Shown here one piece after another: positions 1 through 5,378 of a DNA stretch of 64,000 nt (position 1 is its first letter; every line of letters starts with the position of its first letter). This DNA is from Emticicia sp. C21. GTDB taxonomy: Bacteria > Bacteroidota > Bacteroidia > Cytophagales > Spirosomataceae. Where the stretch lies: the NCBI RefSeq assembly GCF_003418935.1, contig NZ_QVMT01000008.1:171920-235919 (forward strand), in the 5' to 3' direction. Made by a program: the position numbers and the translations under genes. The notes under the pieces were generated by a model. That model saw only the letters and a list, made by a program, of their open reading frames with translations. It searched no databases and was not told where the DNA came from.

Positions 1-330
1 GCGAGATATTATCAAATAAACCAAAATACGACACAATATATACGTTACAAAGATTTACTATTGAAAGTATCACGAACATTACTTATTAAGAAGCATACAT
101 CCTTTCGAAAGATTATCCCCAATAACAATTCCCCTTATTTATGGTCCCTTGGAGACGTATTGCAATACGTCTCTACCAGAATTGGCGAAAATACTATTTC
201 ATACTCTCCTCCTCAACAGTCTGATTCTACCAAAAACCTCCCCAAACCCTTTGAAAACAGAATCCAAAGCCAGAAATTTACTGGATTACAATCTACACAA
301 CAATTAAGAAAATGGAAAAAGAGAAAATGA
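1..330 (+). pseudogene. Truncated N-terminal duplicate of the amidohydrolase gene (runs off left edge)
   Basis: The frame is open from the first base to a TGA at 328-330. Codons 25-81 encode a 19-residue block, NTTQYIRYKDLLLKVSRTL, that matches DTTKYIRYKDLPLKASRTL of the intact amidohydrolase (1737-1793) at 15 of 19 positions, with many synonymous differences, so the copies are related but old. After SRTL the similarity stops and the rest (KKHTSFRKII onward) looks like non-coding sequence read through, including the palindrome at 152-173. The only nearby start is a TTG at 61, inside the matching block, so I do not treat 61-330 as a gene in its own right. The stop overlaps an ATG at 327 of the next gene. 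It could be the start of a paralogue whose 5' part lies outside the window. Confidence 0.5.
152..173. repeat. Perfect 22-bp palindrome, REP-like
   Basis: Two 11-base arms, GAGACGTATTG and its exact complement, meet with no loop. It shares the AGACG(T/C)A core with the hairpin at 9444-9470, which suggests one family of small dispersed palindromes. No T-run follows, so it is not a typical terminator. Confidence 0.6.
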
Positions 331-1238
331 ATGCAGGTGGCAGGGGTATCACCGACTATAAGCCTGAGTATGACGAGCAAGCCTATAATTATTGCCTGTT
401 AGGGGCTACGAATGAGACGTTGGCCGAATTTTTTGGGGTGTCTGATACGACTATTAAAAAATGGATGAAGAAGTATCCGGGTTTTCAGGAGTCTGTCAGG
501 AATGGGAAAGAACTGGCCGATATGCAGGTAGCCAGAAGTCTGTTCAGAAGGGCGGTTGGGTATACTTACGAGCAGGTAGTTTCGGAGTTTGTCAGGGTAG
601 CAGACAATCAAGAGGAGCCTGAAAAGGTTAACCATACAGTGAGAACCTTTCTGCATGCCGACAGTAATGGTTCGCAAAAAAGCAGTTTAGCGACCATTCA
701 AGGAGAACTGGAAAAGGTTACCAATACGGTAGGAACCTATTTGAATGAGAACAACAATAGTGTGCAGAAAAGCAGTTTAACAACCATTCAAGAGGAACTG
801 GAAAAGGTGATAAATATGGTGAAAACCTTTGTGAATGCCGACAGCGACGGTTTGCAGAAAATCAGTACATCGACCACTCAGACGGAACCAGAAAAGGTGA
901 CCCATACGGTGGAAACCTTTTTGGATGAGGAAAGGAAAGGTTTGCAGAAAAGCAGTGCAACGACCACCCAAACGGAACCGGAAAAGGTGACCAATACGGT
1001 AGGAACCTTTTTGAATGAGGAAAGGGAGGGTTTGCAGAAAATCAGGGTGACAACCAGGGAAGTAATACCAGACGTGAGGGCACAGATATTCTGGTTAAAG
1101 AACCGTCAGCCGAAGCTCTGGCGGGATAAACAGGAGATTGACCATACGACGAAAGGTGAAAAGATGTCTTACGTCAAGATATTTGAGCTGCCTGATGATG
1201 GGCGCAACGATTACAGCAACCTTAAAAATAACTACTAA
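312..1238 (+). CDS. Orphan phage terminase small subunit-like protein with internal tandem repeats
   Basis: Residues about 12-90 (DYKPEYDEQAYNYCLLGAT, then a helix-turn-helix around FFGVSDTTIKKWMKKYPGF, then ADMQVARSLFRRAVGYTYE) look like the DNA-binding half of terminase small subunits found in Bacteroidota phages. Residues about 246-280 (VIPDVRAQIFWLKNRQPKLW, then RDKQE) match the family's C-terminal motif. Between them lie five copies of a 30-residue unit (residues 102-245) that normal members of about 150-180 residues lack. The unit has an ExEKVxxTVxTFL...GLQK pattern and may form a helix (inference). No large terminase, portal or capsid gene follows, so packaging function is doubtful; a domesticated or remnant gene is more likely. 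A start at 327 (M6) is equally possible and overlaps the preceding stop. Confidence 0.7.
   Translation: MEKEKMNAGGRGITDYKPEYDEQAYNYCLLGATNETLAEFFGVSDTTIKKWMKKYPGFQESVRNGKELADMQVARSLFRRAVGYTYEQVVSEFVRVADNQEEPEKVNHTVRTFLHADSNGSQKSSLATIQGELEKVTNTVGTYLNENNNSVQKSSLTTIQEELEKVINMVKTFVNADSDGLQKISTSTTQTEPEKVTHTVETFLDEERKGLQKSSATTTQTEPEKVTNTVGTFLNEEREGLQKIRVTTREVIPDVRAQIFWLKNRQPKLWRDKQEIDHTTKGEKMSYVKIFELPDDGRNDYSNLKNNY
615..1046 (+). repeat. Five in-frame 90-bp tandem repeats inside the terminase-like gene
   Basis: Units start at 615, 705, 795, 885 and 975. Each encodes 30 residues beginning E-(P/L)-E-K-V and containing (G/S)-x-Q-K near residue 21; the last is partial and runs into the C-terminal domain. 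Units 4 and 5 are the most alike, which suggests growth by unequal crossing-over or replication slippage. The reading frame is kept in all copies. Confidence 0.85.
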
Positions 1239-1419: not shown

Positions 1420-1595
1420 AACCCGGGATTATGAAAGAAAACAATATAAGACATGGCTGTCAATATTGAAAGAATACGGTAGCTGTCATTTAAAAACCTC
1501 AAACCATTTCTATGTTTATTTACCACCACCGCACTCAAATACTCAGAAATTTTAATATTTTTACCGAAAAACACTTCTATAAAAACTTCTTTTAC

Positions 1596-4500
1596 ATGAA
1601 ACCTGAATTTACCTTGAAAACAGCTTTACTGAGTATTGGCATTGGGTGCTGCGTGGTGGCAGGCGTCTTTGCTTCCAAGGGTCGCAGCTTTTCGCGACTT
1701 TTTCTTTCGCTGCAGGATACTACCAAAGCGGCCAAAGATACGACCAAGTATATACGTTATAAAGATTTACCGCTGAAAGCCTCGCGCACGCTGCGCACCA
1801 ACACAACCGAGGGCACGTGGTTATCGGTCGATGTGAGCCCGGATAGCAAAACGATTGTGTTTGATATGATGGGCGATTTATTCACCATTCCGTTTGCAGG
1901 TGGTAAGGCTACCAATGTAACCAAAGGGATGGCTTTTGATACGCATCCGCGCTATAGTCCGGACGGTAAAAAGCTCCTGTTTATCTCTGACCGCACAGGC
2001 TCAGATAATGTCTGGTACATTGACTTTGAGAAAAAAGATACGGTGCAGGTAACGAAAGACCGCGACCAGAATTTTACCTCTGCCGACTGGACACCCGACG
2101 GCAAATATATTGTGTACTCAAAAGGCCGTATGAACGTGCAATTGTGGATGGTGCACCACGACGGTGGTGGAGGGGTACAATTGATTGACGCACCTACGAA
2201 CCTGAAAACGATTGATGCTGCTGTTGGTCATGATGGCCGCTATGTGTATTTCTCGCAACGCAGTGGCGCCTGGAACTACAATGCTATGATGCCACAATAC
2301 CAGATTGGTATCTACGACCGTGATAATGCCAAACGTACTACCATTACCTCAAGATATGGTTCGGCCTTTACGCCTACGCTTTCGGGCGATGGTAAATGGC
2401 TGGTATATGGCTCCCGCTATGAAGATAAAACTGGATTGGTGCTTCGCAATTTAGAAAATGGCGATGAAAAATGGCTGGCCTACCCTATTCAACGGGATGA
2501 GCAGGAGTCTATTGCTACGATGGGGGTTTTGCCGGGTATGTCGTTTACGCCTGATAATCAGGCCGTGTTGGCTTCTTATGGTGGTAAGATTTACAAAATC
2601 GGCGTGAATGGTGAGAAGCCTGTGGCCATTCCGTTTAATGTAGATATGGAAATAGAAATGGGGCCTCAACTGGAGTTTAAATATCCGGTATCGGATACCA
2701 GCCATGCCCTGATTACGCAGATTCGCGATGCGATTGCTTCGCCAGATGGCAAGAAATTAGCCTTTACAGCCTTGAATCGCCTGTATATAGCAGATTATCC
2801 GAATGGCACGCCTCGTCTGATTACGACAAACGATTTCACCGAAGCTCAACCGGCATGGTCGACCGATGGTAAAAATCTGGTGTTTACGACCTGGACACCT
2901 GAGGGTGGAAATTTATATAAAGTAAATGCAGAGGGTACACCTAATCTGCAAAAACTTACTCAAAGTTCTGCTTTATACGGCCAACCTGTGTGGACGCCTA
3001 AAAACGACCGCATTGTGTTTATCCGTACACGTCTGCAAGCCTTTAAATCTTCTATCGGGCCTGTAGCTAATGGTTCGGAAGACGATATTTGCTGGATAGA
3101 TGCCAATGGTGGTGCTGTTACGGTGATAGACAAAGCCCGTAACCGCACTACCCCGCACTTTGTGAGTAGCCAGGCTGACCGTATTTATTTAAGCGGTAGT
3201 GATGGTGACCTGCAATCTATCAAATGGGATGGGACGGATGAGAAAACGCATGTGAAAGTGACGGGTATCACCACTTATGGGATGAGTATTGAAGGCGAAG
3301 ATTTTGCACATAACTGTATGCTCTCAGAAAAAGCGGCACAGGCTATGGAGGTGAATCGTCCGTCGCCGGCTTCGCAGATTATCATGGCCCCGGATGGCGA
3401 CCAGGCATTGGCGCAGATTAATAATGAGATTTATACACTGAATGTACCAAAAACTGGTAAAACGGTGAATATCTCGGTAGCAGACGTAGGTTCAGCCCAG
3501 TTTCCGGCTAAAAAGCTGACTGAGTTGGGCGGAGAGTTTCCGTCGTGGTCGAGCGATTCGAAGAAAGTGCATTGGTCGCTGGGACGTTATCATATTGTAT
3601 ATGATCTGGAAAGAGCAAAGAATTTTGATGATAGCGTGAAAGTGGCGAAAAAGGCCGAAGAAAAACGTAAGGCAGATTCGTTGAACAAGGCGAAATCGGA
3701 TACCATCAAGATTAAAACCGATAGCGTGAAAGTGAAAGATGCGAAGAAAGCAGCGGCGAAAAAAGAAGAGCCAAAGTATAAACCGGAGGAAACGGAGATA
3801 AAAATCTATTTCAGCAGAGATATGCCAACGGGAGCGGTGCTATTGAAAGGCGCTCGCGTGATTACGATGAAAGGCAATGAAGTGATAGAAAACGGTGATA
3901 TTCTGATTGAAAACAACCGTATCAAGGAGATTGGTAAAAGCGGAACGCTCAAAGGGACGGGCAAGGCCAAGGTAATAGATGTAAAAGGGAAGACGGTGAT
4001 ACCGGGCTTTGTGGATACGCATGCGCATATGTGGCCGCAGTGGGGTATCCAGAAGAATCAGGTTTGGGTGTATGCCGCTAATTTAGCTTATGGCGTAACG
4101 ACAACACGTGACCCGCAAACGGCTACGACCGACGTATTTACGTATGGTGATATGGTTGAGGCAGGTAAAATTGCCGGACCAAGAATCTATTCAACAGGGC
4201 CGGGCGTAGGTTTCTGGGCCTATAATATTAAAGATTCTACAGGGGCTATTAATGCTTTGAAACAGTATAGCAAGTACTATAACTCGAAGTATATCAAGAT
4301 GTATCTGACCGGAAATCGTCAGAGTCGCCAGTGGATTATCAAGGCTGCGAGAGACCAGAAATTGATGCCTACGACTGAGGGAGGGTTGAACTATAAGCTG
4401 AACATGACGAACCTTATAGATGGGTATCCGGGTCATGAGCACGCCATTCCGGTATACCCGTTGTATAACGATGTGGTGAAAAGTATCGCTTACTCACAAA

Positions 4501-5087
4501 TGGCGGTGACTCCCACCCTATTGGTTTCGTACGGTGGGCCTTTTGCTGAAATCTATTATTTTGAGACTGAGAATCCGTACCATGATAAGAAGATGCAGAA
4601 TTTTATGCCTTATGATGAACTGGCAGAAAAGACTCGTCGGGTAAGTACTTGGTTCTTGCCGGAAGAGCACGTATTCCAGAAACATGCGAAATCGATGAAA
4701 TCGATGGTGGAAAGCGGGTCTTTGGCTGGTATCGGTAGTCATGGTGAGTTCCAGGGATTAGGGTATCACTGGGAATTATGGTCGATGCAAAGTGGTGGTA
4801 TGAAAAATCATGACGCCTTGAAAGTAGCTACTATTCTTGGTGCTAAAGCACTAGGATTAGACCAGGATTTGGGCAGTATCGAAAAAGGTAAACTGGCTGA
4901 TTTGTTGATTATGGATAAAAATCCGCTGGAGAATATCCGTAACTCGAATACGTTGAAAATGGTTGTGAAGAATGGTCGGGTGTACGATGCGAATACTTTA
5001 GATGAGGTTTATCCGGCTCAGAAGAAGTTAATTCGTACGGAGTGGACTTTTGAGAAGCCTGCGAATACTACGGGGTTAACAGACTAG
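1596..5087 (+). CDS. Exported amidohydrolase with N-terminal TolB-like beta-propeller
   Basis: The protein has about 1163 residues from the ATG at 1596, chosen because a signal peptide (MKPEFTLKTALLSIGIGCCV) begins there; the frame is open further upstream but that part looks random. Residues about 60-680 contain repeated PD40/WD40-like blades (SPDSKTIVFD, YSPDGKKLLFISDRTGSDNVW, TPDGKYIVYSKG). A Lys/Glu-rich linker (about 682-735) leads to a metal-dependent amidohydrolase domain with the metal-binding DTHAH motif near residue 808 and the closing EKGKLADLLIMDKNPLENI. Such propeller-amidohydrolases are thought to cleave cyclic amide or peptide-like substrates outside the cytoplasm, but the substrate is unknown. 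A truncated relative lies at the left edge. The gene stands alone, with a hairpin at 5132-5175 after it. Confidence 0.9.
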   Translation: MKPEFTLKTALLSIGIGCCVVAGVFASKGRSFSRLFLSLQDTTKAAKDTTKYIRYKDLPLKASRTLRTNTTEGTWLSVDVSPDSKTIVFDMMGDLFTIPFAGGKATNVTKGMAFDTHPRYSPDGKKLLFISDRTGSDNVWYIDFEKKDTVQVTKDRDQNFTSADWTPDGKYIVYSKGRMNVQLWMVHHDGGGGVQLIDAPTNLKTIDAAVGHDGRYVYFSQRSGAWNYNAMMPQYQIGIYDRDNAKRTTITSRYGSAFTPTLSGDGKWLVYGSRYEDKTGLVLRNLENGDEKWLAYPIQRDEQESIATMGVLPGMSFTPDNQAVLASYGGKIYKIGVNGEKPVAIPFNVDMEIEMGPQLEFKYPVSDTSHALITQIRDAIASPDGKKLAFTALNRLYIADYPNGTPRLITTNDFTEAQPAWSTDGKNLVFTTWTPEGGNLYKVNAEGTPNLQKLTQSSALYGQPVWTPKNDRIVFIRTRLQAFKSSIGPVANGSEDDICWIDANGGAVTVIDKARNRTTPHFVSSQADRIYLSGSDGDLQSIKWDGTDEKTHVKVTGITTYGMSIEGEDFAHNCMLSEKAAQAMEVNRPSPASQIIMAPDGDQALAQINNEIYTLNVPKTGKTVNISVADVGSAQFPAKKLTELGGEFPSWSSDSKKVHWSLGRYHIVYDLERAKNFDDSVKVAKKAEEKRKADSLNKAKSDTIKIKTDSVKVKDAKKAAAKKEEPKYKPEETEIKIYFSRDMPTGAVLLKGARVITMKGNEVIENGDILIENNRIKEIGKSGTLKGTGKAKVIDVKGKTVIPGFVDTHAHMWPQWGIQKNQVWVYAANLAYGVTTTRDPQTATTDVFTYGDMVEAGKIAGPRIYSTGPGVGFWAYNIKDSTGAINALKQYSKYYNSKYIKMYLTGNRQSRQWIIKAARDQKLMPTTEGGLNYKLNMTNLIDGYPGHEHAIPVYPLYNDVVKSIAYSQMAVTPTLLVSYGGPFAEIYYFETENPYHDKKMQNFMPYDELAEKTRRVSTWFLPEEHVFQKHAKSMKSMVESGSLAGIGSHGEFQGLGYHWELWSMQSGGMKNHDALKVATILGAKALGLDQDLGSIEKGKLADLLIMDKNPLENIRNSNTLKMVVKNGRVYDANTLDEVYPAQKKLIRTEWTFEKPANTTGLTD

Positions 5088-5175: not shown

Positions 5176-5378
5176 TATTAATGGAGAGAAATAAAATAAC
5201 AGAACAAAAAATATTGAAATTTCAGAATATTTTGAAATTTTTGTAAAGTTTAAATATTCGGAAATTTTTACATATTTAAAATATTCAATATTTACAAACA
5301 GTTATAAAAATACAGCAGTTATTATAGCTTTTTCATGGCAAATGTTTAATTTTTTAAGTAATAGCTAATCAATCCATA

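Follow-up and report, generated by a model that had tools for sequence, protein, structure and literature searches.

What is a gene for a phage terminase small subunit (TerS) doing among host genes in Emticicia sp. C21, and how did its coding sequence come to carry a tandem repeat? The gene lies at the left end of the window (the whole 64,000-nucleotide stretch of DNA that was analysed), where an open reading frame on the plus strand (positions 312-1238) begins with ATG and encodes 308 amino acids without interruption. An earlier note, made from the letters alone, had described it as an orphan TerS gene in which five in-frame 90-bp repeats separate two conserved parts. The two ends are indeed TerS-like. 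The N-terminal, helix-turn-helix (HTH) part (positions 318-632) matches the terminase small subunit family PHROG_309 (E 5.5e-43, best stretch residues 3-107). The C-terminal part (1046-1238), delimited by alignments and bearing the AQIFWLKNRQP motif, matches phrog_23444 (E 5.1e-8, best stretch residues 211-272) and extends 8 residues beyond the usual GRND end; a Pfam search of the protein returned no family at its cut-off. In an AlphaFold2 model (mean pLDDT 68.8, pTM 0.45) the HTH part is confidently predicted, with ten-residue pLDDT means of 90-97 over residues 21-90, while repeat residues 122-180 are predicted to be helical at pLDDT of about 67-85 and the blocks of residues 181-240 fall below 60. 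The top Foldseek matches of this model were to Sf6 TerS (prob 1.00) at weak E values (best 0.028, none at E 0.001 or below), and a PDB sequence search with a TerS profile gave no match at E 0.1.

The repeat array was recovered as described: Tandem Repeats Finder reported a period of 90 with 4.9 copies at 608-1045 (76% matches, no indels), corresponding to five 30-residue units at 608-1057 on the plus strand. The only other tandem array within the 64 kb, at position 5226, has a period of 27 and is 61 bp long. Such repeats do not appear to be an ordinary feature of TerS: among TerS ORFs obtained from 72 of 80 viral contigs (median 161.5 aa, longest 221), nothing comparable was found, and internal self-similarity scores were at most 27 versus 114 for the window protein. 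The lack of a phage neighbourhood was likewise borne out. Over 16.9 kb to the left, ORFs of at least 120 aa appeared host-like by eye and no prophage could be seen; the three neighbours on either side gave non-phage Pfam families (in two cases with scores short of the cut-off), and no TerL or phage head genes were seen adjoining the window copy. Thus, neither of the two outcomes that the earlier note had named as speaking against it came up. The next gene downstream is a host gene of beta-propeller/amidohydrolase type (1512-5087, plus strand), which runs in the same direction.

The idea of a lone orphan, or of a single domesticated gene, did not survive comparison with the rest of the genome. 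Searching the genome with the window protein (tblastn) gave 55 matches, many of them broken by stops and bearing repeats. The core of the repeat is a near-palindrome, AAAAGGTTACC-N8-GGGAACCTTTT, which makes a 30-nt hairpin. Allowing two mismatches, this pattern occurs 150 times here and 49 times in the sister genome Emticicia sp. BO119, and not at all in the other nine genomes of the genus; a reversed control pattern gave no matches. At up to one mismatch it is present in 2 of 222 genomes of the bacterial family, and distant TerS relatives (E 1e-8) occur in 23 of the other 220, one or two in each. The window gene is also preceded by a conserved leader (aligned without gaps at 214-280, plus strand, and located at 218). 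Leaders of this kind were located at 57 loci in this genome and 30 in BO119. Their left edge, which falls between CAAC and AGT-N-TGATT (in the window, AGT starts at 218), is sharp, since mean column information over the 87 loci jumps from 0.08 bits at -40 to -15 to 1.39 bits at -4 to +9. Therefore, the window gene is an intact member of a dispersed family of small elements in two sister Emticicia species.

In copies that retain the gene, the leader is followed by an ATG and TerS. Remains of TerS were detected at 42 of 87 loci, always on the strand of the leader and never on the other, and were undetectable at 45. Hairpins, one to six per locus, are present at 82 of the 87. In intact genes such as the window gene, L010 and, in BO119, L076, the hairpin sits in the linker-coding part of TerS, and every unit of the window gene has a hairpin-like core; many copies without an open TerS still carry the same core. 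The 30-residue repeat is the coding form of the 30-nt hairpin. At the right end, a minority of copies share a tail, which was recognized by a model at 22 of the 82 hairpin-bearing loci; in the solo gene L010 it starts at the TerS stop codon. The tail edge was examined at 15 of the 18 loci whose tails reach model position 62 or beyond (L040, L111 and L124 were omitted); it usually reads ...ACAAGTTCA and is followed by unrelated DNA. Where leader and tail were both found, they span 0.25-0.9 kb. None of the 57 leader loci in this genome lies inside a longer foreign ORF.

Within a locus, the units are arranged head to tail on a single strand. Repeat periods in this genome range from 55 to 175 bp. 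Of 105 periods, 59 are divisible by three, where chance would give 1/3 (p 1.3e-6); counting one period per locus, 28 of 49 are (p 5e-4). Many arrays were therefore being translated when they arose or as they were maintained, which sharpens the earlier suggestion that the repeats reflect either selection or slippage.

Several smaller features accompany the elements. Mini-repeats resembling GGACGCCCAGTC lie at 1275-1286 and 1376-1387 of the window, and between leader and ATG at many loci; they are enriched in elements, with 43 counted inside and 15 outside in 624 kb, two of the outside matches being double-counted from overlapping loci. Their reading as a second hairpin was not pressed, both arms being found at only 13 of 87 loci. 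A 22-bp palindrome, GAGACGTATTGCAATACGTCTC, is located slightly upstream of the window leader, at 152-173.

The copies usually sit in front of a gene and point its way. Orientation was scored here at the 51 of 56 loci with genes on both sides, with ORFs of at least 100 aa in place of annotation and with L012 and L078 omitted from the counts of the two genomes, the next gene in these being TerL. At 48 of the 51 loci the next gene runs in the direction of the element, versus 63% of other gaps at these loci (p 3e-7): 27 sites are divergent, 21 co-directional, 2 convergent and 1 reversed. Similarly, in BO119 the next gene follows the element direction at 28 of 29 loci against a background of 60% (p 9e-6), although 24 sites belong to both sets, which are not independent; the five unpaired BO119 loci give 5/5 (p 0.19). 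The downstream genes form no evident regulon by eye.

The two genomes differ in where elements are inserted. The flanks of 18 loci were queried in BO119; both flanks fell on one contig for 13 of these, and one or none for the other 5. The BO119 interval was shorter by about 0.36-1.5 kb in 10 of the 13, the window's included, and these ten were aligned; the intervals of L015, L023 and L044, which are longer there, were checked for leader and hairpin and not aligned. Neither leader nor hairpin was found in any of the 13 matching stretches, so that at 10 of the 18 queried loci the BO119 site is both shortened and free of the element. For instance, the flanks of the window locus are 22 bp apart in BO119 and about 1.57 kb apart here; the DNA absent from BO119 covers positions 1-1543 and starts about 30 bp left of the window. 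At L021, joined flank pieces of 275 bases span only 288 bases in BO119, compared with a distance of 738 bases between these anchors here. Both the family and these insertion differences are well supported, although precise loss in BO119 may account for individual sites.

The inserts begin 6-346 bp left of the leader, implying that other repeats travel along with the element or lay there first. Two further dispersed modules were noticed upstream of leaders, at 16 and 14 of the 87 loci (examples are L018, L030 and L057, and L032, L026 and L074, respectively), at a distance that is not always fixed. Because insert starts vary and some copies have these extra modules, the mobile unit is not cleanly defined. 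In the window, positions 1-67, left of the element, resemble the start of the downstream gene, as a diverged copy (79 bp, 76% identity to the BO119 gene) that looks like a duplicated flank.

For 24 element sites, one flank or both could be matched between the two genomes. Repeat number, which the earlier note had proposed to compare between strains, differs at these sites: this genome has more hairpins at 18, fewer at 1 and the same number at 5 (p 4e-5 in a one-sided sign test). Unit identity is 0.80 within loci and 0.80 between species. Loss in BO119 is therefore no less probable than growth in this genome, and at the shared sites unit divergence lends no support to a recent lengthening of arrays here. 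One such pair consists of L057, decayed here and with three hairpins, and its BO119 counterpart L076, with an intact TerS and one hairpin. Two other pairs, L014/L082 and L027/L080, have orthologous right flanks and different left flanks with a break near the leader, as if the elements had served as rearrangement points.

The TerS protein, repeats included, has been mostly under purifying selection in one orthologous pair, L010 here and L077 of BO119, which are solo TerS genes with three repeats each. Their dN/dS is 0.16 (Fisher p 3e-14), with 0.19 for the repeat part (Fisher p 1e-4) and 0.15 for the rest. Of the two possibilities raised for the repeats, some selection is thus supported, with the qualification that L077 carries an early stop and may be newly dead. 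Between the window gene and L076, dN is 0.16 and dS 1.05, so their separation appears old for a copy that is missing from BO119 at that site.

In each genome a single leader-TerS copy is paired with TerL, L012 here and L078 in BO119; by the consensus search, the TerS genes adjoining TerL have no hairpin. TerL genes of this family number one here and two in BO119. The second BO119 TerL (L079) belongs to a prophage, with an adjoining portal gene (phrog_64, E 1e-72) and a TerS without a leader; this prophage (L079/L099-L102, G001 C24) thus has TerS and TerL of the same family, a portal gene and no leader. In an alignment of 17 of 20 TerLs (L156, L159 and L161 were left out), the invariant residues are kept in both L012 and L078. 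These include residues of Walker type and the acidic D314, D370 and D485 of L012. With dN at 0.12 and synonymous sites saturated, TerL appears to be constrained, whether within the element or in parent phages. No sequence match to a solved structure was found for the L012 TerL at E 0.01. The ten neighbours of L012 and L078 mostly gave no match to PHROGs or matched general cellular-type families. To the right of the L078 TerL, at a distance of 1.9 kb, is an endolysin-like gene (L078:8290-8877; phrog_181, E 1.5e-28), with response-regulator-like and transporter-like genes, as judged by eye, in between; among the L012 neighbours, one has a weak match to a virion protein (E 1e-5). The leader-TerS-TerL pairs may therefore be prophage remnants.

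The protein thus resembles phage TerS of the PHROG_309, SPP1/Sf6 type in its HTH N-terminal part, its C-terminal AQIFWLKNRQP part and its pairing with TerL at L012, L078 and L079. It differs from phage TerS in that a 90-bp hairpin repeat occupies the linker, the leader is dispersed in the host genome, and solo copies exist, such as the window copy, next to which no TerL or further phage gene was seen. The point of comparison is SPP1, in which pac overlaps the promoter, the ribosome-binding site and the beginning of the gene for TerS, and the two terminase subunits together are enough to cut pac on a plasmid (PMC6316719). The elements share with the SPP1-type pac-TerS-TerL module conserved DNA just upstream of TerS and one TerS-TerL pair kept per genome. 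They differ in being multicopy in a host chromosome, and the leader is a putative TerS site by analogy.

From the dispersed family to TerS as the driver of its spread, the step is one that we infer. It is marginally probable, in our assessment, that these are dispersed elements whose spread is driven by TerS together with TerL or another nuclease. By analogy with phage TerS on pac, which in the phage model lies beside and inside its own TerS gene, TerS would bind the leader and/or the hairpins of its own element. It would then recruit a nuclease, either the single adjacent TerL kept per genome or another enzyme, and the cut would start copying into new sites. The 30-residue repeats would be hairpins multiplied while the gene was translated, and in most copies the gene would later be lost, leaving leader and hairpins behind. 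In its most specific form, the mobility protein is a phage TerS that marks leader and hairpins, a terminase nuclease cuts in cis or in trans, and a packaging machine has been turned into one for copying, with insertion in front of genes always in a set orientation; this full version is speculative and, taken as a whole, unlikely. Against TerS-driven spread, no movement was observed, TerS is detectable at only about half of the loci, and a common tail was found at 22 of 82. Neither leader nor hairpin was found in viral contigs, so that an origin in pac is at most putative. The family itself is better supported than its candidate driver.

Among the alternatives, the strongest is that a Y1 (HUH) transposase acting in trans moves a REPIN-like or IS200/IS605-like non-autonomous element by way of its hairpins, with TerS as cargo. 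At the 15 loci with defined tail edges, a search for a terminal inverted repeat (TIR) gave matches at 5 of 20 end positions, which amounts to none, and there was no target-site duplication (TSD) above shuffles: shared words averaged 3.80 versus 3.64 in shuffled pairs, and 67 of 300 shuffles scored as high. A conserved CAA(C/T) left edge, hairpins, no TIR and no TSD above shuffles would fit the IS200/IS605 class. Additionally, this genome has five Y1_Tnp genes. REPINs, repeats that fold into hairpins, are linked to RAYTs, and REPs can be arrayed in tandem (PMC3116915). Like REPIN/RAYT systems and BIMEs, the present family comprises more than 100 palindromic repeats in one genome, intergenic and in tandem, with one associated protein family. 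However, the partner here is a terminase subunit instead of a Y1 transposase, the repeat lies inside the gene in intact copies, and the units run head to tail instead of forming inverted doublets. Moreover, tail or hairpin was found at none of the five Y1 loci (3-4.5 kb each), where the sole leader match is a weak one that covers just part of the leader (31 positions, E 0.07), so no convincing link to a nearby RAYT emerged at these loci. Nor would mere cargo explain the constraint on TerS in L010 and L077. Taken together, these points leave movement by a Y1 transposase a rather doubtful explanation, if a serious one. The elements also recall MITEs and other IS-derived non-autonomous elements, in that they are short dispersed copies with recognizable ends and insertion differences between sisters. 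Unlike these, they have no TIR that could be found, and no parent transposon with the same ends was found.

The copies could instead be host regulatory cassettes, in which hairpin arrays act as terminator-like or attenuator-like switches before genes and TerS is a domesticated regulator. The placement of the elements argues for this, 48 of 51 sites having the direction of the next gene and only 2 being convergent. The consensus hairpin folds at -12.4 kcal/mol (z -3.6) and is followed by T. The five hairpins of the window gene fold weakly in comparison, with z between -0.9 and -2.1: unit 1, 622-651, -5.3 kcal/mol, z -0.9; unit 2, 712-741, -6.5 kcal/mol, z -1.1; unit 3, 802-831, -4.5 kcal/mol, z -1.8; unit 4, 892-921, -10.5 kcal/mol, z -2.1; and unit 5, 982-1011, which has zero mismatches to the genomic pattern, -8.3 kcal/mol, z -1.7 (all on the plus strand). 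Pooled over the 24 pairs, hairpins are better conserved between the species than the rest of the element (0.76 versus 0.62), although these figures are only rough because several pairs are misaligned. Strong covariation of the stem was not supported: 9.20 pairs were observed versus 8.95 in shuffles (maximum 9.08), which is modest even if above the shuffled values. A known structured RNA was also rejected, only tRNAs reaching the gathering threshold in 15 loci other than that of the window copy. Weighing against a regulatory cassette, the elements are missing from 9 of 11 genomes of the genus, the downstream genes show no evident regulon by eye, copies decay and differ between sisters, and the conservation comparison includes the misaligned loci. 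A regulatory cassette is, on this evidence, unlikely.

Dead phage ends are a further alternative, in which left ends were captured at chromosome breaks after pac cutting beside TerS. The fixed left edge next to TerS is consistent with this, as is the location of the SPP1 pac (PMC6316719). The BO119 prophage with the same TerS/TerL family and a portal gene, and the endolysin-like gene 1.9 kb from the L078 pair, also point to a phage source. However, the right end is common to a minority of copies (22 of 82 tail matches), and TerL occurs only once here and twice in BO119, which argues that DNA beyond TerS was not captured at varying lengths. Furthermore, the leader is absent from the TerS of the BO119 prophage and from two viral contig sets (34 and 80 contigs, possibly overlapping). 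We regard captured phage ends as distinctly improbable. Finally, that a single orphan TerS was domesticated as a DNA-binding protein, with repeats setting its spacing, fits the intact ORF, the strong TerS ends and the partly helical AlphaFold2 prediction, but is very hard to reconcile with dozens of related copies in the genome, the empty BO119 site and the same hairpin core in many copies without an open TerS.

Transposases are the usual partners of dispersed repeats in bacteria. In the present family, a packaging protein is the only one found to accompany the copies, which sit before genes in one direction. No TerS-based dispersed repeat is apparent in open PMC papers, as far as titles and the starts of abstracts tell, and the element family may be a new kind of mobile DNA. 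If TerS does drive the spread, then packaging terminases would be a source of transposition machinery. If it does not, there remains a family of hairpin repeats that has a protein partner and species-level insertion differences. Either way, what moves these elements in Emticicia, and how they affect nearby genes, is a directly testable question.
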